The translations under genes were made by a program, and so were the position numbers. From assembly GCF_002105155.1 (NCBI RefSeq), contig NW_019029069.1:1-64000 (forward strand): 64,000 nucleotides of DNA, read 5' to 3'. Of this stretch, positions 24,363-48,394 are shown piece after piece. Source of the DNA: Lobosporangium transversale (taxonomy: Eukaryota > Mortierellomycota > Mortierellomycetes > Mortierellales > Mortierellaceae). Position 1 is the stretch's first letter, and each line of letters opens with the position of its first letter. The notes below the pieces were generated by a model that saw nothing but the letters and a program-made list of their open reading frames with translations, did no database searches and had not been told where the DNA came from.

Positions 24363-24405
24363 TGTACCGTACCCTTTGACGTTGGATTTCCTCCTGCTTT
24401 TTTTT

Positions 24406-24626
24406 ATAACAATTTGTGGTACTTAGCATAAGACTTTTTTTTTTTTTTATAAAAAAAATACTTAACATAAGACATCGTCCACGTGATCGACTACTCATAT
24501 GTGATTCTCGTTTAGAGTATATAGAGGTGATAATCCTAAAGCTGTCATCAACCTCGAGCGAATCGGGGATCTAGCTGCTTACATGGGTTTAGCACGCTAT
24601 AGGGGATCTAGCTCAAATGGTAGAGC
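24406..24626 (+). repeat. 221-bp block, copy 1, ending in tRNA-Ala nt 1-25
   Basis: Nearly identical to 34223-34443 and of equal length. It begins ATAACAATTTGTGG and includes a T run followed by an A run. It ends with the first 25 nt of the tRNA-Ala gene seen complete at 40056 (24602-24626). A shorter partial copy of the tRNA start (GGGGATCTAGCT) lies 38 bp earlier. It is probably the 5' flank of a tRNA-Ala locus. The alternative is that it is 5' UTR of the LINE that follows. Confidence 0.8.
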
Positions 24627-25250
24627 ACCTTTTCCTTCCGCAATTTTCTCAAACTCTAAATCCCTGAAATAGAGTTCCCCTTCCCCTGTTCTTATATCAC
24701 ACCCCTTCAGTATATACCCCCCTACCCCTTTATATTCACTTCCCAATGACTGCACCCCCAGTGCAGCCGGATCCAGGAAAGGATCAGGCCCAGTGTCAAG
24801 GGCTGGCAAGATAATTGTCAAGGTAAGCGTTTAGGAAACAAGGTAGGGATCAGATATGGATTTATTGCAGACTGAGGTTTGCTATGTTACAAGTCTATGA
24901 TATTTATACTTGTTTGACTGGAGCGGAGACGTGTTTCAAGAACTCTAAATAAAGCTTACTCAAATACTTCCTAATGACTTTTACCATATGCAGAACTCCA
25001 AGTATTGAGTTAACTTAATACACAGGATCCGAGGAAGATATCTGGTGCAATCTTATATCAAGGTTCCTTGGCGCCATGAGCCTTGGTCATTGGTCTATAG
25101 CTCTTCTAGAATTCTTGGAGCTATTCACGGAGCTAGAAAACTAGAAGACGCGACTTGGCTTGACAGACAAAACTATGCATGAGGAAATGAGTGAATGAGG
25201 AGGGAACAAATTAATCAAGCACACGTGATCTTTTTCTGATTCATCAATTC
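24627..25250 (+). other. Probable 5' UTR of LINE A1
   Basis: This 624-bp stretch between the tRNA-Ala fragment and the first Met of LINE ORF1 has no homologue elsewhere in the window, because copy A2 is 5'-truncated. An unrelated open frame of about 65 codons runs on the minus strand (24821 down to 24627) with no recognisable domain. Confidence 0.45.
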
Positions 25251-27021
25251 ATGAGCTCAACATTGCTTGCTGTTCGTGACACCCAGCTGGAGATGGGTAG
25301 CGCTTCTCAAGATCCCCAGGGTGATTTTGAGATGGATGCAGAGGTCGAAAGACCAGCACCGATGGATGTAAATCCATCCGCCCCTCAACAAACCCTAAAA
25401 AAGGCTCTTAAAAAAACAAAAAAAACAACAACAACAAGGAGGCTCAAACTCCGGCAACCCCTGCCCCAGCCACACCACGCATGCTCTCCTACACGGACAG
25501 AGCAAAGGGCAAAAGTCTCCTCAAGGTAGTCTCGTTCGACGAGACCCAACACCTCCCACCGACGGGATTCGGGGGACTTGTGGTTGCCTACCCAATGGCG
25601 CGCCTGGATATGCGCTCTTCGGTCATGCTAGCCATTGGCGATGCAGTGGAGCCGATCCAAATACCTATTTCTAAAGGCAGCATGTGTGCCATCTTCGACG
25701 ACGAAGAGAAGTACGCACGCGCCCTCAACACCAAAGTAGCCATAGGAGACACTCTCCTATGCCCCTCCAGGACGCGCTACACCAACAAGCTGGAGGAAAG
25801 GATCAGGTCTCCAACAGTGGGACCTCACGCCGACGAGTCGGCACTGCAAGCAGCCCTCAACAAGCTGTACGCAGCAATTGGAACAGTACGCGATATTGAA
25901 TATGGCGTCATCCGTCCCGGCTCAAAGATCAAAAACGGAGAGGTCAGCATCACCCTGGCCCTTCACGACACCACTCTGCCGGATACGGAGTTGATCAGAG
26001 CAGCTTCGCTGTTCGGCTTCAACACCGTCTTCACCTGGGAGACAGCTGGAAAATTCTGTTACAACTGTGGCAGTCTTACTCACCTGTCAGCAGAGTGCAG
26101 GACACCACGGACCCTATACCTGGAGGAGATCCGTCCACTATTCTCGCCAATCCTAGCTCCTAGGTACGGCAAGGAGACAACCCAGGCACCACCAAGGGTA
26201 GTAATCAAGTCTCCAACTACTACCACCACGCCCCCCCCCCCCCCCCCCCCCAACCAACCAACAACAACAAAAGGCCACCAAGATCATCGGCAACCACAAC
26301 AACGCAGGCGAATATTTCGTCCGCACCAACAACACGCCTAGATCCAGATGGCTATCAAACGCAGGGAAGGAAGAGACGTATGCCGCCCTCCAAAGCTTCT
26401 AGTAACGCCACCGCTACTTCTAGTTCAAAGCCTGAGTCTAACTCACGCAAGAACAGGAAAAAGCAACGAGCGCAGAAAAAGGCCAAAGAGTCAGGTAAAA
26501 GGCTCGAGAGTAAACAAACGAGCAAGGAAGTAAGCAAAACTGCCCCAGTGGCAGCCAACACTACATCCGGAAGCTTTACGTTCAATCTCCCAAAAGAGCC
26601 GATTTTCACTTCTTGCAGCGCGGAATCCTCTACGAGCAATCAGCGGCAGAAGGGTCAACTATTTAACTCATCTGCGAGGAAGATAGCAACTCCTAGCACT
26701 TCTAACGCCAGACTTCTGAGCTCAAAAGGCAAAGAAAAGGCGACCGCGAAGGAAGCTGATACTCTACCAAAGGATGAAGATGCCCTTGCGGAGCCTCTGG
26801 TGAAAAGGATCAAGCTAACCCCCCAAACCGAGCCATCCACCAAGGACGTATCGGATTGGGACCCCGCGAGCATGGAAGAGGACCCCTCGACCATGGCAAT
26901 CCTCGCGGAACTTGCGAGCAAGGGTGAGGACTCCTCGGCCCTGACGGCAGTCGCGGAACTGGATCCCTCTACCCCGGTAGTGGATGCTCCAGCAGAAGCG
27001 ACCGAGGACATGGTCTTGTAG
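25251..27021 (+). pseudogene. LINE-A copy A1 ORF1 (nucleic-acid-binding), frameshifted
   Basis: The start MSSTLLAVRDTQLE at 25251 opens ORF1. The frame shifts once in the A-rich stretch near 25400-25435 and again in a 21-nt C run (26231-26251) that is only about 7 nt in copy A2. The product has a conserved N-terminal domain (MLSYTDRAKGKSLLKVVSF onward), a CCHC zinc knuckle CYNCGSLTHLSAEC and a basic, Ser/Lys-rich C-terminus (RKNRKKQRAQKKAKESGK). ORF1 proteins of LINEs bind the element's RNA. Both shifts fall in homopolymers, so sequencing error is possible, but they would inactivate this copy. Confidence 0.8.
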
Positions 27022-27103
27022 AGACAAAAAAGAAAAAAAGACAAGAATTTTTTAAGTTTGTCCTTTTTTTCACCGTCTCAGGTCAATACTAAATTTATCC
27101 TCA

Positions 27104-27139
27104 ATGCTGCAAATATCCTTGGCTACATTTAATTGTGAT
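27104..27139 (+). pseudogene. LINE-A copy A1 ORF2, first 12 codons only
   Basis: MLQISLATFNCD is the start of the LINE endonuclease. It matches copy A2 at 35861-35896 exactly in length and is then cut off by Ty3/gypsy sequence. The rest of ORF2 resumes at 30393. Confidence 0.85.
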
Positions 27140-27250
27140 TGAAAAATATTTTAAAGTAAGTGAAAATAATCCATGGGTGTGGTGTGTGGACCCACATCTT
27201 ATTCTCACTTACTTTTCGACTGTCTACTATCTATCTGAAAATATTTTTCA
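27140..27250 (+). repeat. Rearranged LTR remnant of gypsy-2
   Basis: From about 27170 to 27250 this matches the 3' third of the solo LTR at 33449-33775 and ends TATTTTTCA. The first 30 bp (TGAAAAATATTTT...) are the same LTR end inverted, so the segment can fold back on itself (AAAGTAAGTGAAAATAA against TTATTCTCACTTACTTT). The normal LTR start (TGTTG) is missing. Confidence 0.65.
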
Positions 27251-27312
27251 TTTTTTTAAGTGAAGATTTGAACACATTTCCACACCCATTCCATAAAAAA
27301 AACACTCTTACA

Positions 27313-28785
27313 ATGAATCCTAACACTGCATCTAACAGCCCTATAACCGCTGCTGCTTCCGATCTTACTGGTACTCATGCTAATAACGATGTCCCTCCTG
27401 CAACTCCCGCAGACGTGCAAGATATCCTGCCTAATTCGTCCACCATTCCTCAAGGAGAACGTTACCAAGATATGGATATTGATGTCATAACGGAGGATCC
27501 TGTCTCTACGCCCGCGAATCCTCGAAGCAATGAACAGATCTTGACGGACATGAACGAGAAGCGTCGTGAGTTAACTACTCGAAAAGCTCACCTAGCCCGT
27601 CTGATTGCTCAACAAGGTTCCGAAACTGTTGGGGGAAACATCGAAAAGACTCTGGAAAACGTAACTCAAGAACTTAGAGCGCTTGAGAAAAGAGCCGAAG
27701 ATTTCCTGAATTCCGTGCAAGAGATGGAGTCACTGGCAACTCCATTCCAATTCAAGAAATTAAAAAATGAAGCCGTCTCCTTACCATCATCCACCCAAGG
27801 GCATCTGAAAGTGACTGATGACATGCCGAGATACACGCTTGGTTCCAGCCCCCGCAAATTCTTAGATGATGTCCGACATGTGGTATGCACATATGTAGGC
27901 CGAGAAACGTTTGAAAAATCATGCGATCGATACCTACTGTACCTCACTATCAGCGATTATCATCGACGATATCTTGAGCAAGAACTCAAAAAACTTCCTG
28001 AGGATCAAAAGACCTGGGAAAAATGTGAAGCCACTTTCTTGAAAATTGCATTGACTGAACAAGAAAGGACGTCTCAATTCAACAAATTGTTGGAAAAAGG
28101 TCGTGGTGCGCATGAGACGTACCATCAATTCGCTATGCGACTTGACAGGGATGTCCGTGTCTATGGAGTTCGAGATGACAATGACATGGTTATCTCGATG
28201 CTCCAAGCGACCATGAATAATCACACGTTGCATATCATGATAGCAATGTTGCAAAACTACAAGAAGCAATACGTTACATCATTTACCCATATATCGGATT
28301 TCATAAAAATTCTGGGTAACCTCCAGGGCCCAATTAATCTAACAACGCCAGTGTCCCCTGATGCAACTGAAGAGAAACCTCGTCCAAACGGTCCCATGAG
28401 GCATACCCGGAATAAACCAAGGCATAATCCTATGAGCAAAACCGCTCCGAATGAAGAATCGAGCAATAAAAGATTCTATGGCTGTCAACAGTGTGGGAAA
28501 AATAATACACACAATACAGAAGGGCATAAACAATGCTCTAAATGCAAAGCAAGAGGTCACGTAGCCTCAGAATGTACACGAAGGATTGGTGAGTATCTCA
28601 ATCAACCTGCAATTAGTTCATTGGCAATTAAAGCCCCTAGCTCACATAATGAACCATGTTGTTCCTTTTCTTCGCAGTTAACATTAGAAACGATAAGTCA
28701 TGAACCATTTAGAATGGAAAACAAAAATAAATGCAATATTAAAAGCATATCTAAATCATTCAATAAATTACCTACGTTATCTTAA
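27313..28785 (+). CDS. gypsy-2 Gag-like protein with zinc knuckle
   Basis: 490 residues from MNPNTASNSPITAA. A predicted coiled segment (ELTTRKAHLARLIAQQ and after) precedes a capsid-like region (TFLKIALTEQERTSQFNKLL). The C-terminus carries zinc-binding motifs CQQCGKNN and CSKCKARGHVASEC (CCHC). The TAA at 28783 is in frame with the protease/RT region that follows, so the original arrangement was either one frame with a stop or a readthrough. Confidence 0.8.
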   Translation: MNPNTASNSPITAAASDLTGTHANNDVPPATPADVQDILPNSSTIPQGERYQDMDIDVITEDPVSTPANPRSNEQILTDMNEKRRELTTRKAHLARLIAQQGSETVGGNIEKTLENVTQELRALEKRAEDFLNSVQEMESLATPFQFKKLKNEAVSLPSSTQGHLKVTDDMPRYTLGSSPRKFLDDVRHVVCTYVGRETFEKSCDRYLLYLTISDYHRRYLEQELKKLPEDQKTWEKCEATFLKIALTEQERTSQFNKLLEKGRGAHETYHQFAMRLDRDVRVYGVRDDNDMVISMLQATMNNHTLHIMIAMLQNYKKQYVTSFTHISDFIKILGNLQGPINLTTPVSPDATEEKPRPNGPMRHTRNKPRHNPMSKTAPNEESSNKRFYGCQQCGKNNTHNTEGHKQCSKCKARGHVASECTRRIGEYLNQPAISSLAIKAPSSHNEPCCSFSSQLTLETISHEPFRMENKNKCNIKSISKSFNKLPTLS

Positions 28786-30392
28786 TGTATAAACACCTAC
28801 ACCAAATCGTCATGTTATCCTAAGATGTTGTTTGGTACTCAACCGAGAATCGCTATGGAAATGATAGACGCAAAAGAGCTACTATTGCATGATCAATGTA
28901 TCACTGTTGAAATGGAATCTACGCCGGTCACTGTACCTTATCACATCACGACTTCATCTTTATCAATGTCGAATGCCACTTTGGATAACGATACCCATAC
29001 CTTGGCCAAACTTCATCTCAATCATGAGAAGGCTGACAAAAGGATTGTTGTTTATGTCAATTTCGAAGGAGAAAAATATGAAGCGCTGATTGATACAGGA
29101 GCAAGTGTCACCTGCATCCGTAAAAATATTGCGCTCAAACATAGTAAATCTATTACCCCGGTACAAGGCAACATTACTTTAGCTGATGAAAGCTTAACTA
29201 TTCCCCGTATAGGCTTAGTTGAAAATGTAGAACTCGCCTATGGTAATAGAGTAATATCTGCGACACTTGAAGTAATCAATAGGTCGTACCCCTTCATTAT
29301 AGGAATGGATCTATTTTACCAATTTGGATTTGGACTTTCTGGATGTCATAACCCGGGACAGGATGCCATTCTGCTACCTGAACCTGAAGAAGAGCAGATT
29401 AAGTCCTTTATCAAAGAAAAAAAGGTGTTTATGGCAAAAATTGGGCCAGAACTAGCCAAGAATGCGCGAGTACCTAAGCAAAGCTATTGTACAATACCCG
29501 AAATGAAAGTGTTCCTCCCTATTCCGGAAGGTACTGTTTTATATAGACGTTCAAGTCCTTTTGCTGAAAAACAAATGTCCATTCTTAATGAAGCCATAGA
29601 AAAATGGTTGATAGATGACGTTATCACACTTGCCCCTGTAGGCAATGTGCACAGTAATACTCTTATGCTTACAGCAAAGAAAGACCAAAATGGCAATAAA
29701 ACGTTATGGCGAGTATGTCTTGATCCTTGACCCCTAAATAAACATCTACCAGACGATAACTACCCATTATCCCTTATCAATGATATTGTTATTCGTCTCG
29801 CTGGTCATGCCATATTTACAACTATTGATCTCTCACAAGCGTATCATCGCATGCCAATTAATGAAGCAGATCAACCCTTAACAGCATTTATGCATCAGGG
29901 TAAACAATACATGTTTAAGAAGGCACCTTTTGGCTTAAAACCATTGTCAAGTTTATTCCAACGAGGAATGTCTCACATACTCGGGGATCTTCCTTTTGTC
30001 TACAATTTCATTGATGATATTGTAATTTTTTCAAAGAACAGAGTCGACCATGTCGATCATGTAAACACTGTTATTGCCAGACTTAATGATGCTAAATTAA
30101 TCATCAATAGCGGCAAATGTAACTTCTACAGTACACAGATCTCACTACTTGGATTTATAGTTGGTCTGCATGGTAAGAGTGTCGACCCATCTAAATTCGC
30201 AAATATTGACGAATGGGAGCCTCCAACCACTGCCAAACAAATTCAGTCGTACTTGGGCACGTTCAATTTCTTCCGAGAATTTATACCACTCATTAGTGAA
30301 GTTGCTGCACCTCTGGATGCTCTGAGAAGCTGCACAGACATGTTCACGTTGAATGATGAGCAACTACAATCGTTTAATGCCTTAAAGTCCCT
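28786..30392 (+). pseudogene. gypsy-2 Pol: aspartic protease and truncated reverse transcriptase
   Basis: Same frame as Gag. The protease has EALIDTGASVTCIR (catalytic DTGA) and the later FIIGMDLFYQFG. The RT begins MSILNEAIEKWLIDDVI and contains FTTIDLSQAYHRMPI, KKAPFGLKP and FIDDIVIFS (the F/YxDD active site). An in-frame TGA at 29728 interrupts the conserved DP-PLNKHLP stretch, consistent with a CGA to TGA change. The polymerase is cut off at 30392, before RNase H and integrase, and runs in frame into LINE ORF2. Confidence 0.85.
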
Positions 30393-31200
30393 GACTTTCC
30401 TACTGGGAGAGTTTACAGTTCGCAAAGCTCGGCGAGTAATCCAACCAATCCTACTAAAACAAAGAAACCAGGCGGACCACCTTCATGATGCTAATGTGCA
30501 CACGACAGACAATACGCCATGGGACCTCACAACGGCACAGGCGAGGACAATGTACACTCGCCTACACCACAAACACCGACGCAACAAGGAAAAAGATCTG
30601 CTTTTCCTTCTAGCGCACAAAAGGGTTTTGACCAACAATACCAGACGATTTTGGAATGATAGCAACACACTAGGCTTCTGTCGCCGATGCGACTCTACCC
30701 AGCTTGAAGACAATGTGCATGCATTCCATGATTGCCCTGATTTGAAAGCCTTTTGGAATACAATGCACCAAAAACTCACAGCGCTTTATCCTACTACTCG
30801 TTTTAGCATAACCGCCAAGGACCGAATCCTCTGCTGGCCACGGACAGACATTGAGGAAGAAGCACCTCTGGCGATCCACATCCACTCAGCAGCGGTGTGG
30901 GCGATATACGTGACGTTCTGTCAACTGGGAGACGGACAGACAGTCAAGAAAGGAGACCTTGAGACGATATTCATGCAGAACATCCGACGACGAGCCGCTG
31001 ATGACTGGATACGCGCGTGCCAACGAGACAAGAAATCGAGGAACAACAACCCCCAACAAGCCCAGGGCCAGAACCAGCAAGAGCCAGCCAGGCACCGGCA
31101 AGAGTTCAAGGCAGTGTGGGAACATGCACCAGCCATCCAAGTAACCGATGAAGGAGGACCAACATTTGGTGCACTGTTCCACCCTGTGACGCCCGACTAA
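30393..31200 (+). pseudogene. LINE-A copy A1 ORF2 C-terminal part, fused to gypsy-2 RT
   Basis: Nearly identical to 38883-39693 of copy A2. It starts ACTTTCCTACTGGG after a three-base overlap (GAC) with the gypsy-2 sequence and keeps the ORF2 frame to the same stop. It includes the CCHC motif CRRCDSTQLEDNVHAFHDC and the basic, Gln-rich tail. Relative to A2, 2986 bp of ORF2 (endonuclease after codon 12, and the whole RT) are missing. Confidence 0.9.
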
Positions 31201-31487
31201 AACCTTAAAAGCTTAACTCTAAATCGGCAATATACCCAAATACACACTTCCTTCCGCCCCTGTACATATAGCGTCAAACGGCACACATGCAGCTTATATG
31301 CTTGCTTCACCCCTCCAATATTCTAGTGCTAGCTCGTTTGACGCCAAGGGCGCGAACGGACTATTACCGCTGAAAGACCCGCGTGAATGAACGACGTGGG
31401 GACCAGCAGGGAGCTCCAATATAGGACAGAAGATAGTGAGATAGCTCTTGAGAGCCCGAAATTCGAATAAACCATAAACACACCCAT
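31201..31487 (+). mobile_element. LINE-A copy A1 3' UTR
   Basis: Matches the 3' UTR of A2 (39694-40043) apart from a CA/poly-A insertion in A2. It contains a 10-bp inverted repeat, 31271-31280 and 31335-31344, separated by 54 nt. Homology ends at CACACCCA near 31487; no tRNA follows here, unlike A2. Confidence 0.8.
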
Positions 31488-32198
31488 GAAAAAATCGCTG
31501 CCTTAAGAACCGGGAGGTTATACTGAAATGCCCTTAAAAACCACAGCGAGACGCAAATACATAGAACACACTGAATTTATTTTTTCTTTTTTTCGTGTTA
31601 ACAAGAACCCACAGAGGTGAGGAATTTTATTTCATAATCTCGCTCTAAATTAATGATATCGCCCTCAACTATGAAACAAGCGAAACTCTCAAAGTTCGCA
31701 CGGTATGGTTGTGAAGAGCCAATTCGTATCCATGTTTTTCTCTACCAATGTACACCGTGATCGGTACTCGAAGTCCATCCTTCCGATGTGGCCTGTTGCG
31801 CCCGTGAAAAGCCGCGGAGGCTGGCGTACCGACTCTAGCTAAGGACGACTTTTAATTTTTTTCTATTCGATCAAATCCACTGGCATGTGGACCCAAATCT
31901 TGCGGGATTGTCTGAAATTTCTACTTTGGACTCCGTCAAACTTTTTGTGATCATCGCTGTCCTAGTCAAGTGGGTGGATGGGGGATGCTGCCAGATGTAC
32001 CGCTGGTGCGGCTGGGGGGCGGAATATATAACTAAGACGTGTGGCCAGCCAGGCGGCTTAGGGTAGTGCACCCACGATCTTAGCCTTAGCGGAGAACACT
32101 AGGCTGTCTCGAAGAGAAAGTATAAAAACTCAGACAAATCCCTGACCTGGCACATGTTTGCTTCACTTTATGTGCCTTAACCAGGACTCGAACCCGGT
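31488..32198. other. Non-coding spacer with a box-B-like sequence
   Basis: No protein gene seen. A T-rich stretch near 31572-31592 followed by AACAAGAACCCACAG weakly recalls the LINE-B 3' end. GGACTCGAACC at 32184-32194 is a perfect reverse-strand Pol III box B (GGTTCGAGTCC); its box A partner appears to lie beyond the LINE-B insertion at 34205-34215. Confidence 0.5.
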
Positions 32199-32213
32199 CC
32201 CTGGGCTAGACAG
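32199..32213. repeat. Target-site duplication of LINE B2, left
   Basis: CCCTGGGCTAGACAG here and CCCTGGACTAGACAG at 34169-34183 (one mismatch) flank the LINE-B copy. The left copy abuts the poly-T run. Confidence 0.75.
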
Positions 32214-34168
32214 TTTTTTTTCTTTTTTTTTTTTTTTTTTTTTTGATAACAAGGACCCACGAGGTCATGTAGGATTTATTTAGATGTTAGCTCTATAAAT
32301 GGGTTGCCCCATTACTGGGGTCGCAAATAAAGCGGTATCCAATAATCGACCGAAGCCGCATCGTCATACTGCCACAGTACTACATCCTGTTCATAAACCA
32401 CGTCAGCATTGAGTAGACTTCCTTGGTCCCAGAGGACCTGTGGCACGGCTCTAGTCCCTACTTGGCCTGTTGTGCGCGAAGGTCATCCTTTAGCCGCTGT
32501 CCTCAATCATCAAAAATTTACAGCTTTCCAGGCGCTCCATAATCGCCAATTCCACCTGTTGCCGGTAGCTTGCCGCCACTCGCCGGTCTGCCTCAGTCCT
32601 GATCGCCTTCACATCTGCTGTTCGTCGTTGTCCCTGGTGAGAGCCAAAGAATTCACCTCTGCTACGTCTGTGCCTCCCAACACAGTTGCGTCCCCTGGCG
32701 CGTTTGCTCACAGAGGTGATACCATTGTCTCTTTCCCAGTTGACGGTGACTTTGCAGCGTCTGTTCCAGATCTCAGTCCTGCCGAGTTCCTCGATTGACT
32801 TGACAAAGCGGCAAACAATGTACCTTGAGATCGATGCTGTGGTTCTGAAGATCGTCTTCCATTTTTGTATCAGCTCCTTCGGCACCAAACCGTGGTACAA
32901 GTCTTGGACAGTCCAGTGGGCATCCTCACCCTCGTTCCTCCGCCCCATATCCACATCTTCCTCACCAAACAGAGCGCTTGCATGTCGAATCTCTCTGACG
33001 CCCTTGAACATCGCTTCCAAAGAGCCCCAAATCACGTTGTCGGCTACAGGTGTAAACGAGGGACCTCCTTTATTCAGGTTTGGCTCCTGTGTTTTCCCTT
33101 GTTTGTCTTCCCAGAGCTTCTTCTCCTTCACTAATGCTCTTTTGCCATCCTTCGTGATGAGTTCTATGGCCTGCTTCCAACCTTTCAATTGCTCGTCCAG
33201 TGTCATGGGACATTGCCAGAGGTGTTCTATGTCCTCCTGCTCCTGTTCACACATCCTGCAGATGTCAGTCTCATACAGGTCCGGTCACCACTGCCTCATA
33301 TAAGTGAGTGTAGGAAGCATACCATGGACCTTCTTTATTCTGTGCGCTCTCTTGTGACAATCTGCTGGGCTGGTGAAGAGGCCTCTAGGCGTGTTGCCAT
33401 CGTGAAGAATATGCAGGCTTGCTTTCCATTCTACTTCTCGCCAGTCTGTGTTGTATATTTCAATATACAAGATAATAACGGCCCAGCTATAAGGTTAAGA
33501 AAAATACTAAAAACACACTAGGAACACACTAGGGGAATTCCCAAAATTAATACGCTAAGAAAAATATAATAATAATAATAACGCGTCACTAGAGACGCGA
33601 CAAAACACGACATGGTTCCTGAATAATCCCATGTCGCTTCTAGATAGATATGTAGTTACTTGGTACGAGTCTCTCTACCAGAAAATGAATAAATACCCCA
33701 TGGATGTGGTGTGTGGACCCACATCTTATTCTCACTTATCTTAGCTTCTGATAACTACTGTCTAAATATTTTTCAGTCTGCAATATAATTCCTGACTCTG
33801 TTCTGAGACGCCCACAAGTAATGTGTTCTCACTGCTGATTGGAGTTTTAGCAGGTGTCTAAGATCATCCTCCACCACCTCGTTCTCGAAAATAGCGTGGC
33901 AGCGCAGATCGTTGTGTTCCAGTCCTTTGATTGTCCACATTTCGCTAAAATGAGCATCTTTGGCGGCTTGGTCTGCCCTTATATTGCCTCTATTCCCAGC
34001 ATGGCCCTTGACCCATTTCACAGTTACCTTCCCGCCCTGCTTAAAGAGCGCTCTCGAAATAGCTGCCCACCACACTGCGTACTTGGATCGCAATCGCTGC
34101 CGTTCAGTGCTTGTTTCTCGCTTTTGAGCAAGGTCCTTGAACTGAACCACTACCGTCATGTTGTCTAC
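32214..34168 (-). mobile_element. 5'-truncated LINE-B copy B2, RNase H and zinc tail
   Basis: A minus-strand LINE whose poly-A tail is the T-rich run at 32214-32243. The 5' end at 34168 cuts into an RNase H domain: VTVKWVKGHAGNRGNIRADQ keeps the H...N..AD signature. Further on (33254 down to 32490) lies the C-terminal zinc motif MCEQEQEDIEHLWQCP, followed by a frame-broken tail. A solo LTR splits it at 33449-33775. The family differs from LINE A, which lacks RNase H. The copy is inactive. Confidence 0.85.
33449..33775 (+). mobile_element. Solo LTR of gypsy-2 inside LINE B2
   Basis: 327 bp, TGTTGTATATTTC...TATTTTTCA, with a perfect 5-bp target duplication GTCTG (33444-33448 and 33776-33780). 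The 3' third matches the LTR remnant at 27170-27250, and the whole matches the reversed LTR at 41480-41759. Confidence 0.9.
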
Positions 34169-34183
34169 CCCTGGACTAGACAG

Positions 34184-34222
34184 GGGGGTGGCCTGACGAG
34201 TATACTACTCAGCCATTGGGCG
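34184..34222 (-). other. Box-A-like half of a split tRNA-like sequence
   Basis: CTACTCAGCCA at 34205-34215 reads TGGCTGAGTAG on the minus strand, a perfect box A. With the LINE removed it would lie about 51 nt before the box B at 32184-32194. The acceptor arms do not pair, so this is a decayed tRNA gene or a tRNA-derived SINE. Confidence 0.45.
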
Positions 34223-34443
34223 ATAACAATTTGTGGTACTTAGCATAAGACTTTTTTTTTTTTTTATAAAAAAAATACTTAACATAAGACATCGTCCACG
34301 TGATCGACTACTCATATGTGATTCTCGTTTAGAGTATATATAGGTGATAATCCTAAAGCTGTCATCAACCTCGAGCGAATCGGGGATCTAGCTGCTTACA
34401 TGGGTTTAGCACACTATCGGGGATCTAGCTCAAATGGTAGAGC
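34223..34443 (+). repeat. 221-bp block, copy 2, ending in tRNA-Ala nt 1-25
   Basis: Direct repeat of 24406-24626. The tRNA-Ala 5' portion occupies 34419-34445 if the two bases shared with the LINE are counted (27 nt identical to 40056-40082). Confidence 0.85.
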
Positions 34444-35756
34444 GCATGTGTGCCATCTTCGACGACGAAGAGAAGTACGCACGCGCCCTTAACACCAAAG
34501 TAGCCATAGGAGACACTCTCCTATGCCCCTCCAGGACGCGCTACACCAACAAGCTGGAGGAAAGGATCAGGTCTCCAACAGTGGGACCTCACGCCGACGA
34601 GTCAGCACTGCAAGCAGCCCTCAACAAGCTGTATGCAGCAATCGGAACAGTACGCGATATTGAATATGGCGTCATCCGTCCCGGCTCAAAGATCAAAAAC
34701 GGAGAGGTCAGCTTCACCCTGGCCCTTCACGACACCACTCTGCCGGATACGGAGTTGATCAGAGCAGCCTCGCTGTTCGGCCTCAACACCGTCTTCACCT
34801 GGGAGACAGCTGGAAAATTCTGCTACAACTGTGGCAGTCTTACTCACCTGACAGCAGAGTGCAGGACACCACGGACCCTATACCTGGAGGAGATCCGTCC
34901 ACTATTCACGCCAATCCTAGCTCCTAGGTACGGCAAGGAGACAACCCAGGCACCACCAAGGGTAGTAGTCAAGTCTCCAACCACTACCACCACGGCCCCC
35001 CCAACCAACAACAACAAAAGGCCACCAACTTCAACAACGCAGGCGAATACCTCGTCCGCACCAACAACGCGCCTAGATCCAGATGGCTATCAAACGCAGG
35101 GAAGGAAGAGACGTATGCCGCCCTCCAAAGCTTCTAGTAATGCCACCGCTACTTCTAGTTCAAAGCCTGAGTCTAACTCTCGCAAGAACAGGAAAAAGCA
35201 ACGGGCGCAGAAAAAGGCCAAGGAGTCAGGCAAAAAGCTCGAGAGTAAACAAACGAGCAAGGAAGTAAGCAAAACTGCCCCAGTGGCAGCCAACGCTACA
35301 TCCGGAAGCTTCACGTTTACTCTCCCAAAAGAGCCGATGTTCACTTCTTGCAGCGCGGAATCCTCTACGAGCAACCAGCGGCAGAAGGGGCGGCTATTTA
35401 ACTCACCAGCGAGAAAGATAGCAACCCCTAGCACTTCTAACGCCAGACCTCTGAGCTCAAAAGGCAAAGAAAAGGCGACCACGAAGGAAGCTGATACTCT
35501 ACCAAAGGATGAAGATGCCCTTGCGGAGCCTCTGGTGAAAAGGATCAAGCCAACCCCTCAGACCGAGCCATCCACCTTGGATGTATCGGATTGGGACCCC
35601 GCGAGCATGGAAGAGGACCCCTCGACCATGGCAATCCTCGCAGAACTCGCGAGCAAGGGTGAGGGCCCCTCGGCCCTGGCGGCAGTCGCGGAACTGGATC
35701 CCTCTACCCCGGTAGTGGATGATCCTGCAGAACCGACCGAGGACATGGTCTTGTAG
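34434..35756 (+). CDS. LINE-A A2 ORF1, N-terminally truncated
   Basis: 440 codons stay open, but the first four come from the tRNA-Ala 5' part; genuine ORF1 sequence starts at MCAIFDDEEKYARALNTKV. The zinc knuckle CYNCGSLTHLTAEC and the basic C-terminal half are intact and about 95% like A1 by eye. The short C run (about 7 nt) shows the ancestral state of the frameshifted A1 tract. RNA-binding role by family. Confidence 0.8.
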   Translation: MVERMCAIFDDEEKYARALNTKVAIGDTLLCPSRTRYTNKLEERIRSPTVGPHADESALQAALNKLYAAIGTVRDIEYGVIRPGSKIKNGEVSFTLALHDTTLPDTELIRAASLFGLNTVFTWETAGKFCYNCGSLTHLTAECRTPRTLYLEEIRPLFTPILAPRYGKETTQAPPRVVVKSPTTTTTAPPTNNNKRPPTSTTQANTSSAPTTRLDPDGYQTQGRKRRMPPSKASSNATATSSSKPESNSRKNRKKQRAQKKAKESGKKLESKQTSKEVSKTAPVAANATSGSFTFTLPKEPMFTSCSAESSTSNQRQKGRLFNSPARKIATPSTSNARPLSSKGKEKATTKEADTLPKDEDALAEPLVKRIKPTPQTEPSTLDVSDWDPASMEEDPSTMAILAELASKGEGPSALAAVAELDPSTPVVDDPAEPTEDMVL

Positions 35757-35860
35757 AGACAGAGACAATAAAAAGTCAAGAGATAAAAATTAAATTAAAA
35801 CCTTAATTTTTTAAGTTTGCCTTTTTGTCATTGTCTCATATCAAATCTATTTTATCCTCA

Positions 35861-38800
35861 ATGCTGCAAATATCCCTGGCTACATTTAATTGTGATCGCA
35901 TCCAAAAACAAGACAAACGTACAAATTTGTTCCGTTGGCTAAAAACCCGCAAATATGATCTGATAGCTTTACAAGAATTCAACCCAGTACACTCTACAGG
36001 GAAGGATGACAGTGATGCTTGGATGATCCAGTGGGGCAGAGGTGGCTTTTGCTCAGGCAAATGTGCCATCCTTGTCAACAACAAGTCTATTAAAATCTAC
36101 AATACTACAACCCTCTCACAAGGACGCATTATTTTTGCTGATTTCAAAATGGAAGACGAAGAGTACCGCTTTGCGAGCATCTACGTCCCATCCAACCGAG
36201 AACAGAGAGCAGAGTTTATTGCAAACTTTCCCTCCAACGAACTCAAGCACCCACGTTTGATACTAGCTGGTGACTATAATGCTTATCCAAATGACCAAAC
36301 TGATAGATCTCCTCCTCTTGATCTACTAACCCAAAGAAACCAAACCCTGTGGCCATCACTTGAACAAGCCCTGATCCCTCTGAATCTATATGATCCAGTC
36401 CCGGAACTAGGCGAGGACGAAACTCCGTTAGAGAGCCGATTCACTCATGTTCATAAAAACGGAAATAAAGCGATTCTCACACGTATTGACTTTATTCTGA
36501 TGACCCAACCTCTATTTGATATTTCTAATACACCTAGAGCTATGACATGCCCAGCCATTCGAAGCGATCACAAGGTCCTCCATTGTAAGCTGTCAGCGAT
36601 TGCGCCTTCAACCTCAGGGGAGAAGACCAAGAGCCTCGACACTCGCTTGCTACGAGACCCAGAGTACGATGCTATCATCCGCAACCTGTGGGCCTCTCTC
36701 CTACGCTCACGAGAAGACTCTCCAGAAGAGCCAACTCACGAGTTCTGGGACAGAGCCAAGGTGGCGATGCTAGCAGAGTCGGTGAAGTATGGTGCAAAAA
36801 TTAGAAAACAACAAATTCAAAAGAGACACACAATAGCCAGAAAAATCAGACAAAATGACGAACGCATACTCGCTGACCCCTACAACACCAGACTGGTCGA
36901 AAAACGAGACAGACTCATCGCGGAAAGCGTAGAGCTTGAATCGATTCAACTGGAAAGGACTGCTACGCTCGCTAGAGTAAAGTGGTTAGAGGAAGGAGAG
37001 GTCGCTACGCCATATTTTACAAACATACTCAACCAAAAGAAAAAGAAAAAACTGATTCCAGCAGCCAGACGACCAGACGGCACCACGGCTACCTCGCAAG
37101 AGGATATCCAGGAAGCTGTCAGGACATACTGGGAAGGTATTTACACATCGCAGGTTCGGACACGACCGCTCGAACTACACTCTTGGGCGAACTCACTAGG
37201 AAATTAGAAGACGTGGATGTAAACATGCTCGACTCTGATCTAACAGTGACGGAGGTTGAGAATGCAGTGAAACTGAGTGCGAACAGTAAATCACCAGGCG
37301 AGGATGGCCTACCCTTTGAATTCTACAAAGCATTTCTGGACTTGTTTTCTACGATCCTTACGCAGATCTTCAATGAAGCCACAGCGGAGGGATCCCGACT
37401 GCCTGCATCCCATGGACGCTCAGTTGTCGCTCTCTTTCACAAGAAAGGCGATAGGACACTCCCCCAGAACTACAGACCAATCTCGCTGATCAACTGCGAC
37501 TACAAAATCTTTACCAAAGCACTGACTGAACGCATCAACAGGGTGGCTGTCAAACTCTTGGGAGAATGGCAGACTGGATTCGTCAAAGGTCGACAAGGCC
37601 ATGACAATGTCTTTCAGACACACCTTGCAATGAAGCATGTTCACCACCAAACAACCCCCACGCAACGCGCTGAATACGCCAATTATATTGACCAACAGCA
37701 ACAGTATCCGCCGTCTCGGAGGAGAAAACCAGACCTGCCAGCTTATGCGATTCTTAGTCTTGACCAGGAAAAAGCATATGATAGAGTGGAATGGAAGTAC
37801 CTCAGAGCGGCCCTACAGGCCTTTGGCTTCGGACCAAGGATACGACGCTGGATCGGGCGCTGCTACCTCAAACCAACTAGTCGGCTTATTGTCAACGGAG
37901 AGCTATCACAGCCATTCTCGATCACTCGAGGCCTAAGACAAGGAGATCCACTAGCACCACTCTTGTTCAACTTTGCTATTGAACCTTTCCTCAACTTTTA
38001 TGTGCTCAAAGCCCAAGGCATCCCAACACCAGATGGTTATGCAATCGCATGCGCTTTCGCAGACGATACAAATCTGATGGTGGCCAAAGGTGACGAAGCC
38101 ATAGTACAAAGGGCGCTATCTCTTCATGAGAAGGCATCTGGAGCCAAGGTCAACAAAGACAAGACAGTATTAATCCCACTCAACACCTGGTCACACGACT
38201 ACATCCGCCTACCAGACTACAGCTGGGAGGAATACGGAAAGCCATTCAAGCATCTAGGGATCTACATTTCTGCGGAAGGCTATAATATGCCAACCATAGA
38301 GACCCAGATCCTGGCAGATCTTCGAAGAGCGACAGCCACATGGCGACTGCGAGGGCTTTCTCTACAAGGACGGGTGACTATAATCAATACATACCTTCTT
38401 TCAAAAATATGGCACTGCGCACCATTCTACCCATTTTCTTCTCCTTTTTATACTGCACTAGACAGGATACTAAAAGAGATTCTATGGAGCGGAAGGCGCA
38501 GCCGCATCAAACTCGAGGAATTTTTCAAACCAAAGTCAGAGGGAGGATGGGGGATGATCCACCCACGGTCTCAGGTGCAGGCGCTGAAAGCAAAGTGGAT
38601 GGCTAGATGGCTGCTAGAAGAGACCAAGTGGGCGGACGTGTTTGAAGATTGTGCAGAGTATACTCTACCAGAGAGGATAGCGGAACCGAAACTGATTCAG
38701 TGTGCCACTAACCACATCATACTACAACCGAGCACAGCAGCTCGCTCAGTCACATACAAAGGAGCAGACGCAAGTGTGCACCAAACACTGTATGCATGGT

Positions 38801-39693
38801 CATTACTACAGCCCACACGGGATGAAACTAAAGACTTTGACAGGGAGCGAAAAGAAGCATTGACGCTAGGACTGGCAGACACGACTTTCCTACTGGGAGA
38901 GTTTACAGTTCGCAAAGCTCGGCGAGTTATCCAACCAATCCTACTAAAACAAAGAAACCAGGCGGACCACCTTCGTGATGCTAATGAGCACACGACAGAC
39001 AATACGCCATGGGACCTCACAACGGCACAGGCGAGGACAATGTACACTCGCCTACACCACAAACACCGACGCAACAAGGAAAAAGATCTGCTTTTCCTTC
39101 TAGCGCACAAAAGGGTTTTGACCAACAATATCAGACGATTTTGGAATGATAGCAACACACTAGGCTTCTGTCGCCGATGCGACTCTACCCAGCTTGAAGA
39201 CAATGTGCATGCATTCCATGATTGTTCTGATTTGAAAGCCTTTTGGGATACAGTGCACCAAAAACTCACAGCGCTTTATCCTACTACTCGTTTTAGCATA
39301 ACCGCCAAGGACCGAATCCTCTGCTGGCCACGGACAGACATTGAGGAAGAAGCACCTCTGGCGATCCACATCCACTCGGCAGCGGTGTGGGCGATATACG
39401 TGACGTTCTGTCAGCTGGGAGACGGACAGACAGTCAAGAAAGGAGACCTCGAGACGATATTCATGCAGAACATCCGACGACGAGCCGCTGATGACTGGAT
39501 ACGCGCGTGCCAACGAGACAAGAAATCGAGGAACAATAACAACCGCCAACAAGCCCAGGGCCAGAACCAGCAAGAGCGAGACAAGCACCGGCAAGAGTTC
39601 AAGGCAGAGTGGGAACATGCACCATTTATCCAAGTGACCGATGGAGGAGGACCAAAATTTGACGCACTGTTCCACCCTGTGACGCCCGACTAA
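35861..39693 (+). pseudogene. LINE-A A2 ORF2: endonuclease and reverse transcriptase, one frameshift
   Basis: Starts MLQISLATFNCD. An APE-type endonuclease occupies the first 240 residues (LIALQEFN, ILAGDYNAYPN, RIDFILM, IRSDHKVLHCKL). The RT follows: NSKSPGEDGLPFEFYKAF, LPQNYRPISLINCDYKIF, SLDQEKAYDRVEW, GLRQGDPLAPLLFNFAIEP and the active site CAFADDTNLMV. The C-terminus has CRRCDSTQLEDNVHAFHDC and no RNase H. One frame change near 37150 separates the endonuclease frame (stop at 37207) from the RT frame; otherwise no stops are seen. The element nicks DNA and reverse-transcribes its own RNA at the nick (TPRT), by family. Confidence 0.9.
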
Positions 39694-39759
39694 AACCTTA
39701 AAAGCTTAACCTTAAAAATCGGCAATATACCCTAATACACACATACACACATACACACA

Positions 39760-39792
<33 letters not shown>

Positions 39793-39828
39793 CCCCGAGC
39801 TACCCTTCCTTCCGCCCCTGTACATATA

Positions 39829-39902
39829 GCGTCAAACGGCACACATGCAGCTTATATGCTTGCTTCACCCCTCCAATATTCTAGTGCTAGCTCGTTTGAC
39901 GC
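39829..39902 (+). repeat. Stem-loop in LINE-A 3' UTR
   Basis: GCGTCAAACG (39829-39838) and CGTTTGACGC (39893-39902) are perfect inverted repeats with a 54-nt loop. They are identical in position and sequence in A1 (31271-31344). Confidence 0.75.
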
Positions 39903-40055
39903 CAAGGGCGCGAACGGACTATTACCGCTGAAAGACCCGCGTGAACGAACGACGTGGGGACCAGCAGGGAGCTCCAATATAGGACAGAAGATAGTGAGAT
40001 AGCTCTTGAGAGCCCGAAATTCGAATAAACCATAAACACACCCACCACAACGAGT

Positions 40056-40128
40056 GGGGATCTAGCTCAAATGGTAGAGCGCTCGCTTAGCATGCGAGAG
40101 GCACTGGGATCGATGCCCAGGTTCTCCA
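40056..40128 (+). tRNA. tRNA-Ala (AGC)
   Basis: 73 nt including discriminator A. The D stem GCTC/GAGC, anticodon stem CTCGC/GCGAG with loop TTAGCAT (anticodon AGC) and T stem CTGGG/CCCAG all pair. The acceptor stem GGGGATC/GTTCTCC contains the G3:U70 wobble pair that identifies alanine tRNAs and has one T:T mismatch at 6:67. No intron. A T-run terminator follows. It lies directly at the 3' side of LINE A2. Confidence 0.92.
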
Positions 40129-40131
40129 ATC

Positions 40132-40142
40132 TTTTGTCTTTT
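40132..40142 (+). terminator. Pol III T-run terminator
   Basis: TTTT runs at about 40133-40136 and 40138-40142 lie a few bases past the tRNA-Ala gene. Confidence 0.6.
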
Positions 40143-41474
40143 GCACTCGGAGTTTATCTCACGCATTTTGTCCTTTAACAATGGAAAAAGATATTTTGCA
40201 CGGGGGTCTTTTTTTTTTTTTTTTTATTTATTTGTACGGGATCTTTATTTCAGTCTTAAATACCACTACAAAGAAGCCTTCGACGACACAAGTTCAGATC
40301 CAGAGCCGATACTCAAGCATCAAATACTGGCCAGAATATTTATCTTATCAAGGCCGTACGTAGCTCAGAGTAGATGTTGATACTCTTTTTGCGGCTCTGG
40401 GACTAAATAAAGAACTACAAATGATTTATCTATAATTGAAATATACTATGCCGCTCTACTTTGCACTTTTGTTGGTCCTGTTGTTATAGATTGTGGATGG
40501 TTCCCCGATGCTTTCTTTCATTTAGCGCGTGCATACATCTCTAGTATTTCCGTACACTATTAAGCACACAACGATGAGTTCAGTAATTAGGAACCTCTAA
40601 TGTGTAGTTTGTTTCGGTAGATATACAAACAATCATACTACCATAATCATTGCTACAATGCATAGCGTGCCGTGTTACTACTCTCTTTCTTTTCTCTTTC
40701 TTATATGTCCTTATCTCTGTCCTTCTTTATTAAGAGCTCAAGCGCCCTCAGTACTAAATCCTGTTTATCAAATTCACCAAAATACAATGGGTAGACCTCA
40801 GTTTATTTTGTGGAATGTCTATCCCCTCACCCGTTTGTAACCCGAGAGATTACTTATCTTTTGATAGTTGGTGGCAGTTCGCACTCAAAGTCGATCGTGC
40901 CACAATTACCTATACCCTTATATCTAAATAGCTAAAATATTTTAATAGCACAACCGTGACTTATAGTGATAGAAAAGAGACATAAATACTCTTTTCTGTT
41001 ACGTCGATAAAGATCCTTATTTTTGTCTCATTACATTCCAAGTTTGTTATCATGTTCAACAGGGTTGATTTTTCACCACTAATAGCCAGAACTTGCCTTA
41101 GGTCGTCTTTAGCACGCAATGTCGCATACTCAGCAGCACATGTATATGCTCGCTGCGTCTAGGGACTAGCTTCATATTGTACAATCATCTAAAAGAAAGT
41201 TTGGTCAAAAAAATAAAATTTTGAAATGGCTATGAAGAGAAGCACTGTCTTCAATCCTATTTCTTGTCGTTTTCCCTCAGCATGTACTGCCCAAAAACTT
41301 CAGTGATTATCTACATTGGTCTCGTTAATAAAAGCGTAAATTTCCATCTTGGTTGGTGAAGTATTTTTGTATGTCGCAAATGAGCTGTTTGTCAGAGATT
41401 CAAAATAAAAAAAAAATAATAATAAATAACCCACTTTGACCTGACTTTATTTCGGGTGACTGTAGAGCGGAATA
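40143..41474. other. Intergenic, nothing recognised
   Basis: About 1.3 kb, AT-rich, with a T run at 40209-40225. Short open frames only, without motifs. Confidence 0.6.
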
Positions 41475-44999: not shown

Positions 45000-45930
45000 T
45001 CTTCACTTTTTAAATATACTTTCATGTGCTTCTCTTCGACGCTTCACTTTCGAGTTATCCTTTCCTTTGTTTCCCTTCGATGCTTCGCTTTCTTACGTTG
45101 TTTTCATTTGTTTTCTCCCTTTTCTTATTATAGCTTCCTTTTCTTATTATAACCTCCTTTGTTTCTCTTTGTGTGTGCGTGTATGTGTGTGTTTTGTTTT
45201 ACTTATTATACTTTCGTTTGTTTCCCTTCTGTGCTTCTCTTTCTTATTATGCTTTCATTGTGTGCTTCCATTTTTTTTTTTTTTTGTTTTCTTTTTTTTT
45301 TTCTTTTCTTTTCTTCAGTGCTTCCTTTCCTTGCCATATCTTACATTTGTTTCCCTTTTGCTTTTCTTTCTTATCATATTTTCATTTATAGGCGCCGGCA
45401 TTTCTTACATATCTTTTTGTTTGTTCTTCCCCTCGCTTTACTTCTTTGCTATGCTTCCGTTTGTTCTTTCTCGACTTTCCCTCCTCCTTTCTCTCTCTCT
45501 CTCTCTCTCTTTTTTTTCTCACTTGCTTTCACTTACTCCTCCTATGTGCTTCTCTTCCTTAGTTTATTTTCATTCGCTCTTTCTCAGTGCTCCTTTCTCT
45601 TTCTTATTTCTCTTTCTTTTGTTGGTTACTTGCCGCTTCCCTTCCTTACCTTACTTTCTCTTACATCGTTTCCTCGTTGCTTACCGCTCTTGGGGGCTAT
45701 TTTGCCTTTGGTATAGTATGGAGACAAAAAGTATGTAGGTTAGTATAAAGTAGTGACGGCAAGAGAAGGCAACGGTCGTAGTTGAGCGAGAGTTAGGGAT
45801 GACATAAAGAGTCACAGGGAGAGACGGAAAAAGTGTGTGCGTGCGTGCTTGTGTGTGAATGTATTTGGCAAAGGACTGCGATCGAGACTTACTTTTCAAG
45901 AGGTGGGGAGGTGGAGAGGTGGAAAGATAA

Positions 45931-46338
45931 AGAGGTGGAGAAGTGAAGAAGCGGAGAGGTGGAGAAGTGAAGAAGCGGAGAGGTGGAGAAGTGAAGAAGC
46001 GGAGAGGTGGAGAAGTGAAGAAGCGGAGAGGTGGAGAAGTGAAGAAGCGGAGAGGTGGAGAAGTGAAGAAGCGGAGAGGTGGAGAAGTGAAGAAGCGGAG
46101 AGGTGGAGAAGTGAAGAAGCGGAGAGGTGGAGAAGTGAAGAAGCGGAGAGGTGGAGAAGTGAAGAAGCGGAGAGGTGGAGAAGTGAAGAAGCGGAGAGGT
46201 GGAGAAGTGAAGAAGCGGAGAGGTGGAGAAGTGAAGAAGCGGAGAGGTGGAGAAGTGAAGAAGCGGAGAGGTGGAGAAGTGAAGAAGCGGAGAGGTGGAG
46301 AAGTGAAGAAGCGGAGAGGTGGAGAAGTGAAGAAGCGG
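45931..46338 (+). repeat. 24-bp tandem array, 17 copies
   Basis: Unit AGAGGTGGAGAAGTGAAGAAGC plus GG. It spans exactly 408 bp, 17 near-perfect units. Because 24 is a multiple of 3, several frames on both strands stay open (e.g. RWRSEEAE), which is not evidence of coding. Confidence 0.95.
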
Positions 46339-46449
46339 AGAGGTAAGAAGGTGGAGAAGTGAAGAGGTGGAGAAGTGAGGAGAAAGGAAGAGGAAAAAAA
46401 AACAAAAGAAAGAGCGAGCTTAAAAATGAGAGAAAAGCGTCATTCTCCC

Positions 46450-47443
46450 AATCTCACTCGTCGCCACCATTTCTCCTTATCTTTGTTGAAAGCGGACATA
46501 ATTATCCGAATATAGGCGAAATGAAAGTGATTGGACGCCATTTTGAAACAGCATGAAATTCAAAGAAAGGGTGGATGGAAAACTGTCGGCTTGGACAGCC
46601 CGGAAGCGATCCCGTTGCCTTTCATTGCGACAATTTTCGCATTTGTTGACGTAATAAGCGAAAGTGATACGACACTGAGAAGAACGAAGCAAAAAGCATC
46701 GAAGGTATTAAACTTAATGACTATGAGTAGACACTACTCACACCACGACTTTTGACCCCAGACTTACACATTGTATGCTTTTTTTGCGGTCGCATTTTCT
46801 TAAGGAACAAAAAAAAAATTGATAGAGAAAGATGCATTAATTTTTCATGCATCTTTGGGTGTAGCCACACTTTTCATTACATCTCGCTCTTCTCTCTTTT
46901 TTATCGCTTCTAAAAGTATAATAGACAAGGATCCAGGCTTGTCATAGACTCTAGTGCCTTCTAGTTTCTGATTGAAAGTAATACAGTGTGTTCAGGTCTG
47001 CTACAGTATCTGGTAGATGCTTTTCATGGAGCCCATCACCTTTCTAGCCCATGTCCCAAAGGTAAGCCTGCCTTATTTTTTGTTATGACCATCTTGTTGA
47101 GCGAGCAACAACAAGCAACACGTAAAAAGTATGTAACGTGTGTGTCGAGGAAAATATTATATCCAAGCTCTGCAGGGCCTTCAGGGCCTTCAATACTTTT
47201 GATTCAACACCTTCATTACTATTGTATTTAATTCTTCGCATTAAATTTATTTATCCCTCTTTCAATGCTTTCCCTACCTTCACGTACATTATTCCTTTTG
47301 CTTCATGTGACAATGTAATGACATCAACCCTCCCTGTGGAAGGAAGATGCTTTTGCTTTTAAAGCAACCGACTATTGCCATATTCGGATAATTATGTCCG
47401 CTTTCAACAAAGATAAGGAGAAATGGTGGCGACGAGTGAGATT
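46450..47443 (+). mobile_element. ~1-kb unit with perfect 64-bp inverted ends (possible MITE)
   Basis: AATCTCACTCGTCGCCACCA begins a 64-bp segment (46450-46513) repeated in perfect inverse at 47380-47443. The interior (about 870 bp) has no transposase. No convincing target duplication is visible next to the ends. A mirrored copy lies at 61330-62322. Confidence 0.6.
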
Positions 47444-48394
47444 ACCCAAGAAATCATGCATGGATATTCAGCGAATAAACAAGAATGCAAGAATAGCAAA
47501 ATGGTGTCTGTTGGACAATGTAAACACTTTAAGGTTTGGTGGTAAATGAGGTGCAAACATTTTGATGATGACTGACATAAGGATTGGAGCTGTGTGTCAC
47601 CAAGGAGTACCCACCATCCCGCCTAGTGCAGGTTGCCGGTTCACACAGCAAGATAGTGCTTACTTTGAGTATTGCTCCATGGGTGCTCCTTATTTATACT
47701 TGTGCAGGAGACAATAGAAGTGCTTCCATGGTGAAGAGTCCAAGGAAGTGCTTCTCAATATATATATATATATTGAAGCCTCTCTTCCAAAGCCAGTTGT
47801 TCATAACATAACAATAGGCACCAGAACCCCTCATTTTCGGAGCAGTACATTAATAAGTTCACCCTCCTATCATCTAAGCAATGCCGCCTCTACTAAATTT
47901 TCAATTTTCGGAGACTGCATTTTAAAGCTTTTTTTTTTTTTTTTGTGTGAATACTTTTTATTAAGAGATTGCTTGCTATCTAGCTATCTAGCTTACCTGG
48001 TTACTATCCTAAGCTACAAGAAGCCAGACTCTTAGCCACCTTGGAAAGCGCTTTTCTTTGTCACCATCGAAAAGACTCTCCAAGATGTTGTCCGGAGCAC
48101 ACCACGTGGAGGTGGTCTGGCATATCGTGCTCCGTTGGTCAGGCCCCATGGCCTTGCAAACGCCCGCACACACACACATTTATTTACCCATTCCCATCCC
48201 CATTCCCTTTCCCATCCCCATTCCATTTCCCTTTCCCTTTCCCATTCTGGACCGAAGGGGCTCCGCCATCGCAAGGCTCGTTAAAGAACCAGCTCAGGCT
48301 CATGCCCGTTCGGACCTACCTTAGATATGCATTGGTTATTGCACCTTGGATGTGCATTGTTGCTATGCTAAAAAGTGCTTTGTGTTGTGTTAGT

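Follow-up and report, generated by a model that had tools for sequence, protein, structure and literature searches.

LINE-A copies in the window

In this study, we analyzed a stretch of 64,000 nucleotides (nt) from Lobosporangium transversale (contig NW_019029069.1 of assembly GCF_002105155.1; hereafter the window), which contains two copies, A1 and A2, of a long interspersed nuclear element (LINE), LINE-A, each preceded by the first 25 nt of a tRNA-Ala gene. Copy A2 (34444..40055, plus strand) is truncated by ~0.6 kb at its 5' end and is 99.6% identical to a full-length copy on contig C11. It lies between tRNA-Ala nt 1-25 (the tRNA head; 34419..34443, plus strand) and a complete tRNA-Ala(AGC) gene (40056..40128, plus strand). 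The preliminary description of this DNA had claimed that A2 is flanked by 27-bp repeats corresponding to tRNA-Ala nt 1-27 and that the right one regenerates a complete tRNA. Both points were confirmed, as the 27-mers at 34419-34445 and 40056-40082 are identical and the downstream gene is complete; the last two bases of the repeat (GC) cannot be assigned with certainty, as the full-length element itself shows GC ahead of ATGTG at this place, and at loci other than A2 the head is 25 nt long or slightly shorter. The 25-mer occurred three times in the window, versus none in 100 shuffles.

The remainder of open reading frame 1 (ORF1) of A2 (34434..35756, plus strand) has a CCHC knuckle that scored below the Pfam cut-off; the frame as listed begins within the tRNA head, and its element portion starts at 34444. 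ORF2 (35864..39693, plus strand), which encodes an apurinic/apyrimidinic (APE) endonuclease and a reverse transcriptase (RT), is present as two overlapping frames that meet near 37150. The true 3' end of LINE-A, CACCCACCACAACGAGT (40039..40055, plus strand), is identical over its 17 nt to an abortive insertion on contig C35.

Copy A1 (24627..31486, plus strand) has a full-length 5' end and starts, as had been claimed, directly after tRNA nt 25 (head at 24602..24626, plus strand). It carries extra DNA at ~24794-25281, and its interior (~27140-30392) has been replaced by DNA resembling a long terminal repeat (LTR) element; A1 is interrupted, and it is older than A2 (~91.6% identity over its two long stretches). 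Its final 11 bp and the tRNA are missing, because other sequence, homologous to LTR ends beside other tRNAs, starts at 31487. This LTR-end-like sequence (31487..31575, minus strand) includes an 89-bp stretch with 92-93% identity to the DNA immediately preceding tRNA genes or heads on C117, C65, C44 and C47.

The left flank of A2 (34223..34418, plus strand), taken together with the head, is 98.6% identical to 24406-24626, and it matches an empty site on contig C4 at 100% over 258 bp. In these flanks, GGGGATCTAGCT, which equals tRNA-Ala nt 1-12, starts 37 nt upstream of the tRNA head (34382-34412 and 24565-24595, and also on C4 and, with one change, on C88) and is followed by other sequence; together they are perhaps the scar of an older insertion. 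When positions 23000-41000 were compared with Rfam, tRNA was the only match above the gathering score, and thus no known self-cleaving ribozyme was found at the LINE-A 5' end.

LINE-A across the genome

The search covered the 42.7 Mb of one assembly (127 contigs, of which C119 is that of the window), and the resulting list of tRNA genes is a lower bound, with 63 of 1628 candidates scored. An Oxa1-like host protein encoded in the window matched that of L. transversale, a Mortierellomycete, at 100% identity over 96% of its length, versus ~84% for the next relatives, and we take this species to be the host. The full-length LINE-A on C11 is 6198 bp long, and both of its ORFs are intact (592 and 1277 amino acids). 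A search with the last 176 bp of LINE-A detected its 3' end in six places; the five complete ends all stood at nt 1 of tRNA-Ala(AGC), and the sixth was that of A1, which is 11 bp short. Two abortive pieces also ended at tRNA-Ala nt 1, giving seven 3' ends in total. The 11 bp CCACAACGAGT, which the preliminary description had assigned to the element itself, proved to be its own 3' end, as they terminate six of the seven exactly and the seventh differs by a final C. The 25-nt head was found exactly in eight places, and every LINE-A 5' end that could be read (9/9: A1, A2, two on C11, the C35 copy and its short piece, and three on C75) was preceded by a tRNA head of 23-27 nt. Thus, the genome-wide comparison of junctions in this assembly bore out the predicted fixed position at both ends. 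Matches of the 5'-end pattern on C39 and C57 had no tRNA head and were dropped as chance.

Several ends were left out of these counts: the lost 3' end of A1, the 5' end of the first C11 copy, which gives way to other DNA at element position 1763, and the 3' ends of the third C11 copy, where the contig stops, and of the second C75 copy, which is cut off at element position 1768. The start at C75:281772 was assigned by element position (241) to the copy continuing at 287283, and was not read across.

On C11, three LINE-A copies lie head to tail, separated only by the 25-nt head, and the contig ends within this array. On C35, a LINE-A copy is followed by a head, 17 nt of the LINE-A 3' end and a complete tRNA; two copies and a 24-nt piece are arranged in the same way on C75, where the heads are decayed. 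An empty tRNA-Ala locus is present in the same assembly at C4:14436: the tRNA-Ala is intact, and its right flank matches that of A2 at 99.7% over 24 kb (window 40056-64000 against C4:14436-38416). C4 is either an unmerged allele or a recent duplication of the window region. A second tRNA-Ala, on C88, had no LINE-A in the 10 kb read. Altogether, four intact tRNA-Ala(AGC) genes were found, two of which have LINE-A directly upstream. No LINE-A copy with preserved ends was detected away from tRNA-Ala in the genome searches; such a copy at an unrelated site would have spoken against the preliminary description.

LINE-B, a second family at tRNA-Ile and tRNA-Lys

A protein search of the genome revealed a second family, LINE-B, which is 41-42% identical to LINE-A ORF2 over residues 627-1259 and 34-38% over the rest. 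Its ORF2 occurs at five places, four of them ~1.7 kb upstream of a listed tRNA. A search with 218 bp of the LINE-B 3' end gave seven places, and all five complete ends stood at nt 1 of a tRNA: the end CCTCCATCGGAG meets tRNA-Ile(AAT) on C44, C106, C117 and C95 (minus strand), and at C85 the LINE-B end meets tRNA-Lys(CTT). We considered CCTCCATCGGAG as a native tRNA leader and rejected this, since it is absent from the C106 5' flank; it is therefore LINE-B's own end. Six of the eight LINE-B 5' ends that were read follow a head of 24-25 nt, one follows a head of 12 nt, and one has no head. Among the five copies found by ORF2, those on C44, C85, C106 and C117 have the 24-25-nt head; two further 5' ends with a head, on C41 and in a truncated copy on C117, were located via the head. 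Thus, the claim of a fixed tRNA-Ala target holds for the complete 3' ends of LINE-A, and the habit extends in LINE-B to tRNA-Ile and once to tRNA-Lys.

Both families begin with ACCTTT(T)CCTTCC, and an alignment and folds of their 3' ends gave no convincing common structure. Besides C85, six tRNA-Lys genes with an exact head were read, and a LINE-B end was absent from the 80 bp inspected at each of them. Short LINE-B-like leaders of unsure origin before tRNA-Ile heads on C117 (two), C41, C44 and C65 were left out of the counts, as were an LTR-cut LINE-B end at C117:388595 and a partial 3' match at C44:494337; the plus-strand C95 copy has lost its 3' end, which is likewise not counted. With both families taken together, all 10 complete long 3' ends stand at tRNA nt 1, in addition to the two abortive pieces, and 15 of the 17 5' ends read follow a tRNA head of 23-27 nt, some having been found via the head itself.

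Relationships of the two families

LINE-A ORF2 contains an APE domain (PF03372) and an RT domain (PF00078). Its best relative among solved structures was human L1 ORF2p (E 1.7e-54, versus 5.2e-12 for R2), and comparison with these structures indicates that LINE-A and LINE-B are APE-type, L1-like LINEs. Pfam reported no transposase in LINE-A, and no restriction-like endonuclease domain either, for which no dedicated search was made. No relative was found in viral contigs. A search of genome contigs gave a single relative, L047 (NZ_JANXSO010000066.1), a 6660-bp contig with an intact ORF2 that was binned in an Iodobacter metagenome-assembled genome and that appears to be a mis-binned eukaryotic contig. 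A tRNA-Lys begins 570 bp past its ORF2 stop codon on the same strand; with one copy, the exact 3' end could not be fixed. In a quick tree, LINE-A, LINE-B and L047 (included twice, also as P0014) occupied separate branches of one group (19 of 36 rows, support 100). The three rows with a known tRNA did not form a group of their own and clustered no more than shuffled labels did (3 label changes).

Mechanism of insertion and alternative explanations

The genome contains fixed junctions, complete downstream tRNAs, an empty site, arrays, abortive pieces and insertions at several tRNA types. It is almost certain that these elements insert site-specifically inside tRNA genes and that the gene is restored, and target-primed reverse transcription (TPRT) is very likely the route. 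On the basis of these genomic junctions, we give site-specific TPRT with restoration of the target, by whichever means the head is restored, a rough probability of 0.85. LINE-A and LINE-B would insert in sense orientation after nt 25, where the D arm ends, leaving nt 1-25 upstream and a complete tRNA gene downstream. With the target regenerated, more copies could enter the same gene, which would build up arrays of elements in head-to-tail order, spaced by the tRNA head. The fixed 3' ends, together with the 5' truncations and the abortive pieces, suggest that TPRT would begin from the tRNA side; the 17-nt (C35) and 24-nt (C75) LINE-A 3'-end pieces between tRNA heads are the residue to be expected of aborted TPRT.

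In six of 10 full-length 5' junctions the head joins ACC directly, and in the other four (C11, C41, C44 and C106) an extra AGAGCA, AGAGC, CAGAGC or TGGGTAGAGCAGAGC lies between head and element. The simplest reading of these pieces would be that the 5' end of the element RNA lies within the upstream tRNA head (AGAGC...), so that the cut top strand of the target, which ends in AGAGC, could pair with the cDNA end. At the other end, the RNA may extend ~12 nt into the downstream tRNA; the bottom strand would then be nicked near nt 12/13, and the head carried by the RNA would restore the acceptor strand. We regard the presence of a tRNA head at the 3' end of the RNA as an even chance. It is suggested by C85, where the upstream head is pure tRNA-Lys, whereas the tRNA-Lys downstream carries the bases of tRNA-Ile at nt 3 and 6, the two positions within nt 1-12 that distinguish the two tRNAs, and tRNA-Lys bases from nt 13 on (nt 13 and 15). 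This hybrid folds as a cloverleaf, with an Rfam score of 65.2 versus 68.7 for tRNA-Lys genes such as those on C24 and C91. The earlier view that the duplication spares the tRNA gene is thus upheld in that the gene is restored at each insertion, and may need amending in that the head could come partly from element RNA.

A number of points weigh against these conclusions. A1 and A2 have 221 bp of left flank in common (98.6%) and therefore lie in duplicated copies of one locus. These two alone are thus weaker evidence than the preliminary description, which had treated them as two witnesses, assumed; the specificity itself stands, and the case rests better on C11, C35 and C75 together with the LINE-free sites C4 and C88. 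The counts for both families are small, partly limited by the assembly, and are lower bounds: the genome yielded only four intact tRNA-Ala(AGC) genes, and the array on C11 is cut off by the contig end. Some 5' ends (C41, the truncated C117 copy, the first C75 copy and the exact place on C106) were located via the tRNA head or a pattern requiring AGAGC, and the abortive pieces were detected because heads flank them, so that similar pieces elsewhere would escape. The plus-strand LINE-B on C95 has only nt 1-12 as its upstream head, and the minus-strand copy on C95, found by its 3' end, has no head at its 5' side. Both ends of two LINE-A relatives, C35:729733 (78%) and C35:138012 (75%), are too decayed for a test, and these copies were left out of the counts. 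The RNA-carried head is suggested by two bases at one locus, which could also be the product of gene conversion, with a LINE-B copy that precedes tRNA-Ile as donor, and we infer the mechanism from genomic sequence. The left border of the first of these relatives (L045, C35:729733-730827), CAGGGATCTAGGCCCT, has a faint likeness to the tRNA-Ala head; both of its ends are unreadable.

The gene conversion just mentioned is part of the alternative that survives best, to which we give somewhat less than even odds. Here, the bottom strand would be nicked exactly before nt 1 and the top strand cut after nt 25, with an RNA ending in GAGT or CGGAG; the 25-bp duplication alone would regenerate the tRNA, and the C85 hybrid would be a later conversion. 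This classical target duplication departs from the model with an RNA-carried head solely in the source of the downstream head. The other 3' junctions, which without exception fall at nt 1 and go with a head of almost constant length (25 nt), fit it without extra assumptions, and fixed duplications of similar size are described for other site-specific LINEs (20-bp target-site duplications of reptilian Utopia; accessible part of PMC4640811). However, it requires a second event at C85, it places recognition wholly on one side of the nick, as the bases before nt 1 vary by site, and it leaves the 12-nt head on C95 and the AGAGC repeats unexplained.

Targeting through bound RNA polymerase III (Pol III) factors rather than DNA sequence, as proposed for TRE5-A, seems unlikely. 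The targets are Pol III genes, LTR elements in the genome are likewise found a few bp ahead of tRNAs, and TRE5-A ORF1 binds TFIIIB (accessible part of PMC5911963). In contrast, the tRNA-associated dictyostelid LINEs listed in the same partial source land 2 to ~150 bp outside the gene, whereas the site here is fixed to the base inside it; moreover, all seven LINE-A 3' ends adjoin the AGC isoacceptor, and the five other tRNA-Ala-like genes seen, which share GGTAGAGC, showed no LINE-A end over the 150 bp inspected. Finally, it is highly improbable that recombination, duplication or assembly error produced the junctions with no target specificity: the shared flank of A1 and A2, the 99-100% identity of the C11 units and the near-duplication of C119 and C4 would fit this, but the flanks are distinct (C119/C4/C88 type versus C35/C75 type), the 5' truncation points and extra junction bases differ among copies, the equivalent position in a different tRNA is used by a distant family, and an unoccupied site is present.

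Taken as a whole, TPRT into tRNA genes with an RNA-carried head leads to a tentative picture, which we hold to be possible but rather short of probable. An L1-like LINE lineage of early-diverging fungi and relatives would use tRNA genes much as integrating phages do; an RNA with one piece of its tRNA at the 5' end (AGAGC) and another at the 3' end (about nt 1-12) would rebuild the gene that it enters and, where a short stretch (TTAGCT) matches, shift to another tRNA type, which would leave a hybrid, foldable tRNA and a gene open to unlimited insertions.

Other mobile DNA

Genes or heads of tRNA-Ile and tRNA-Lys were also observed to have LTR-element ends a few to ~20 bp upstream (L053, L055, L057, L059, L072 and L073, on C117, C65, C44 and C47), and the LTR elements of this genome seem to favor tRNA genes as well. 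The window itself contains an LTR element at 51471-58408, whose 367-bp terminal repeats (51471-51837 and 58043-58408) are 98.9% identical and which encloses gag/protease and RT-RNase H-integrase ORFs. It is flanked on both sides by a 4-kb inverted repeat (45898-49935 and 58861-62870; 97.6% identical).

Implications and comparison with known systems

With the target rebuilt at each insertion, one tRNA gene can take many copies, and a LINE can persist in an essential, low-copy gene. This offers an answer to the problem of persistence in low-copy targets that is raised in PMC4640811 (accessible part). The C85 hybrid suggests a route to a change of tRNA target and to altered tRNA acceptor stems, and the short fixed site may interest students of site-specific APE-type LINEs.

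The following comparison draws on those parts of the cited papers that were accessible. Non-LTR retrotransposons specific to tRNA genes have been described among NeSL-related LINEs, namely NeSL-1_TV (tRNA-Pro), LIN15_SM (tRNA-Arg) and LIN25_SM (tRNA-Glu) (PMC4640811); these are grouped with elements that have a restriction-like endonuclease, whereas LINE-A and LINE-B have APE and are closest to L1. The dictyostelid TRE5, TRE3, NLTR-A and NLTR-B resemble our families in being APE-type, L1-type and tRNA-associated and in that the tRNA gene survives. However, their insertion sites are spread over a range outside the gene (2-6 bp upstream for NLTR-A, 40-54 bp upstream for TRE5 and 40-150 bp downstream for TRE3; PMC5911963, PMC5006619), with TRE5 in the opposite orientation, whereas LINE-A and LINE-B lie inside the tRNA after nt 25. 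Keno, which has an APE-type endonuclease, and Utopia, which can be tandem and whose reptilian members make 20-bp duplications, share a fixed site inside a small-RNA gene; their target is different (U2 small nuclear RNA genes), and the persistence of Utopia was attributed to unfixed insertions rather than to regenerated targets (PMC4640811). Dada elements use fixed points inside tRNA genes, the A box included, with one group termed Dada-tA (PMC3706591, PMC8869645); they are DNA transposons, whereas LINE-A and LINE-B encode RT and APE and leave 5'-truncated and abortive copies. Dewa is target-specific and tRNA-linked, but it resides in a tRNA-Leu spacer and not in a tRNA body (PMC3706591). In a literature search that covered few subscription papers and parts of those cited, we found neither an APE-type LINE inside a fungal tRNA body nor an account of tRNA regeneration by a LINE. 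LINEs specific to tRNA genes are already known, and LINE-A and LINE-B are a new variant of them.

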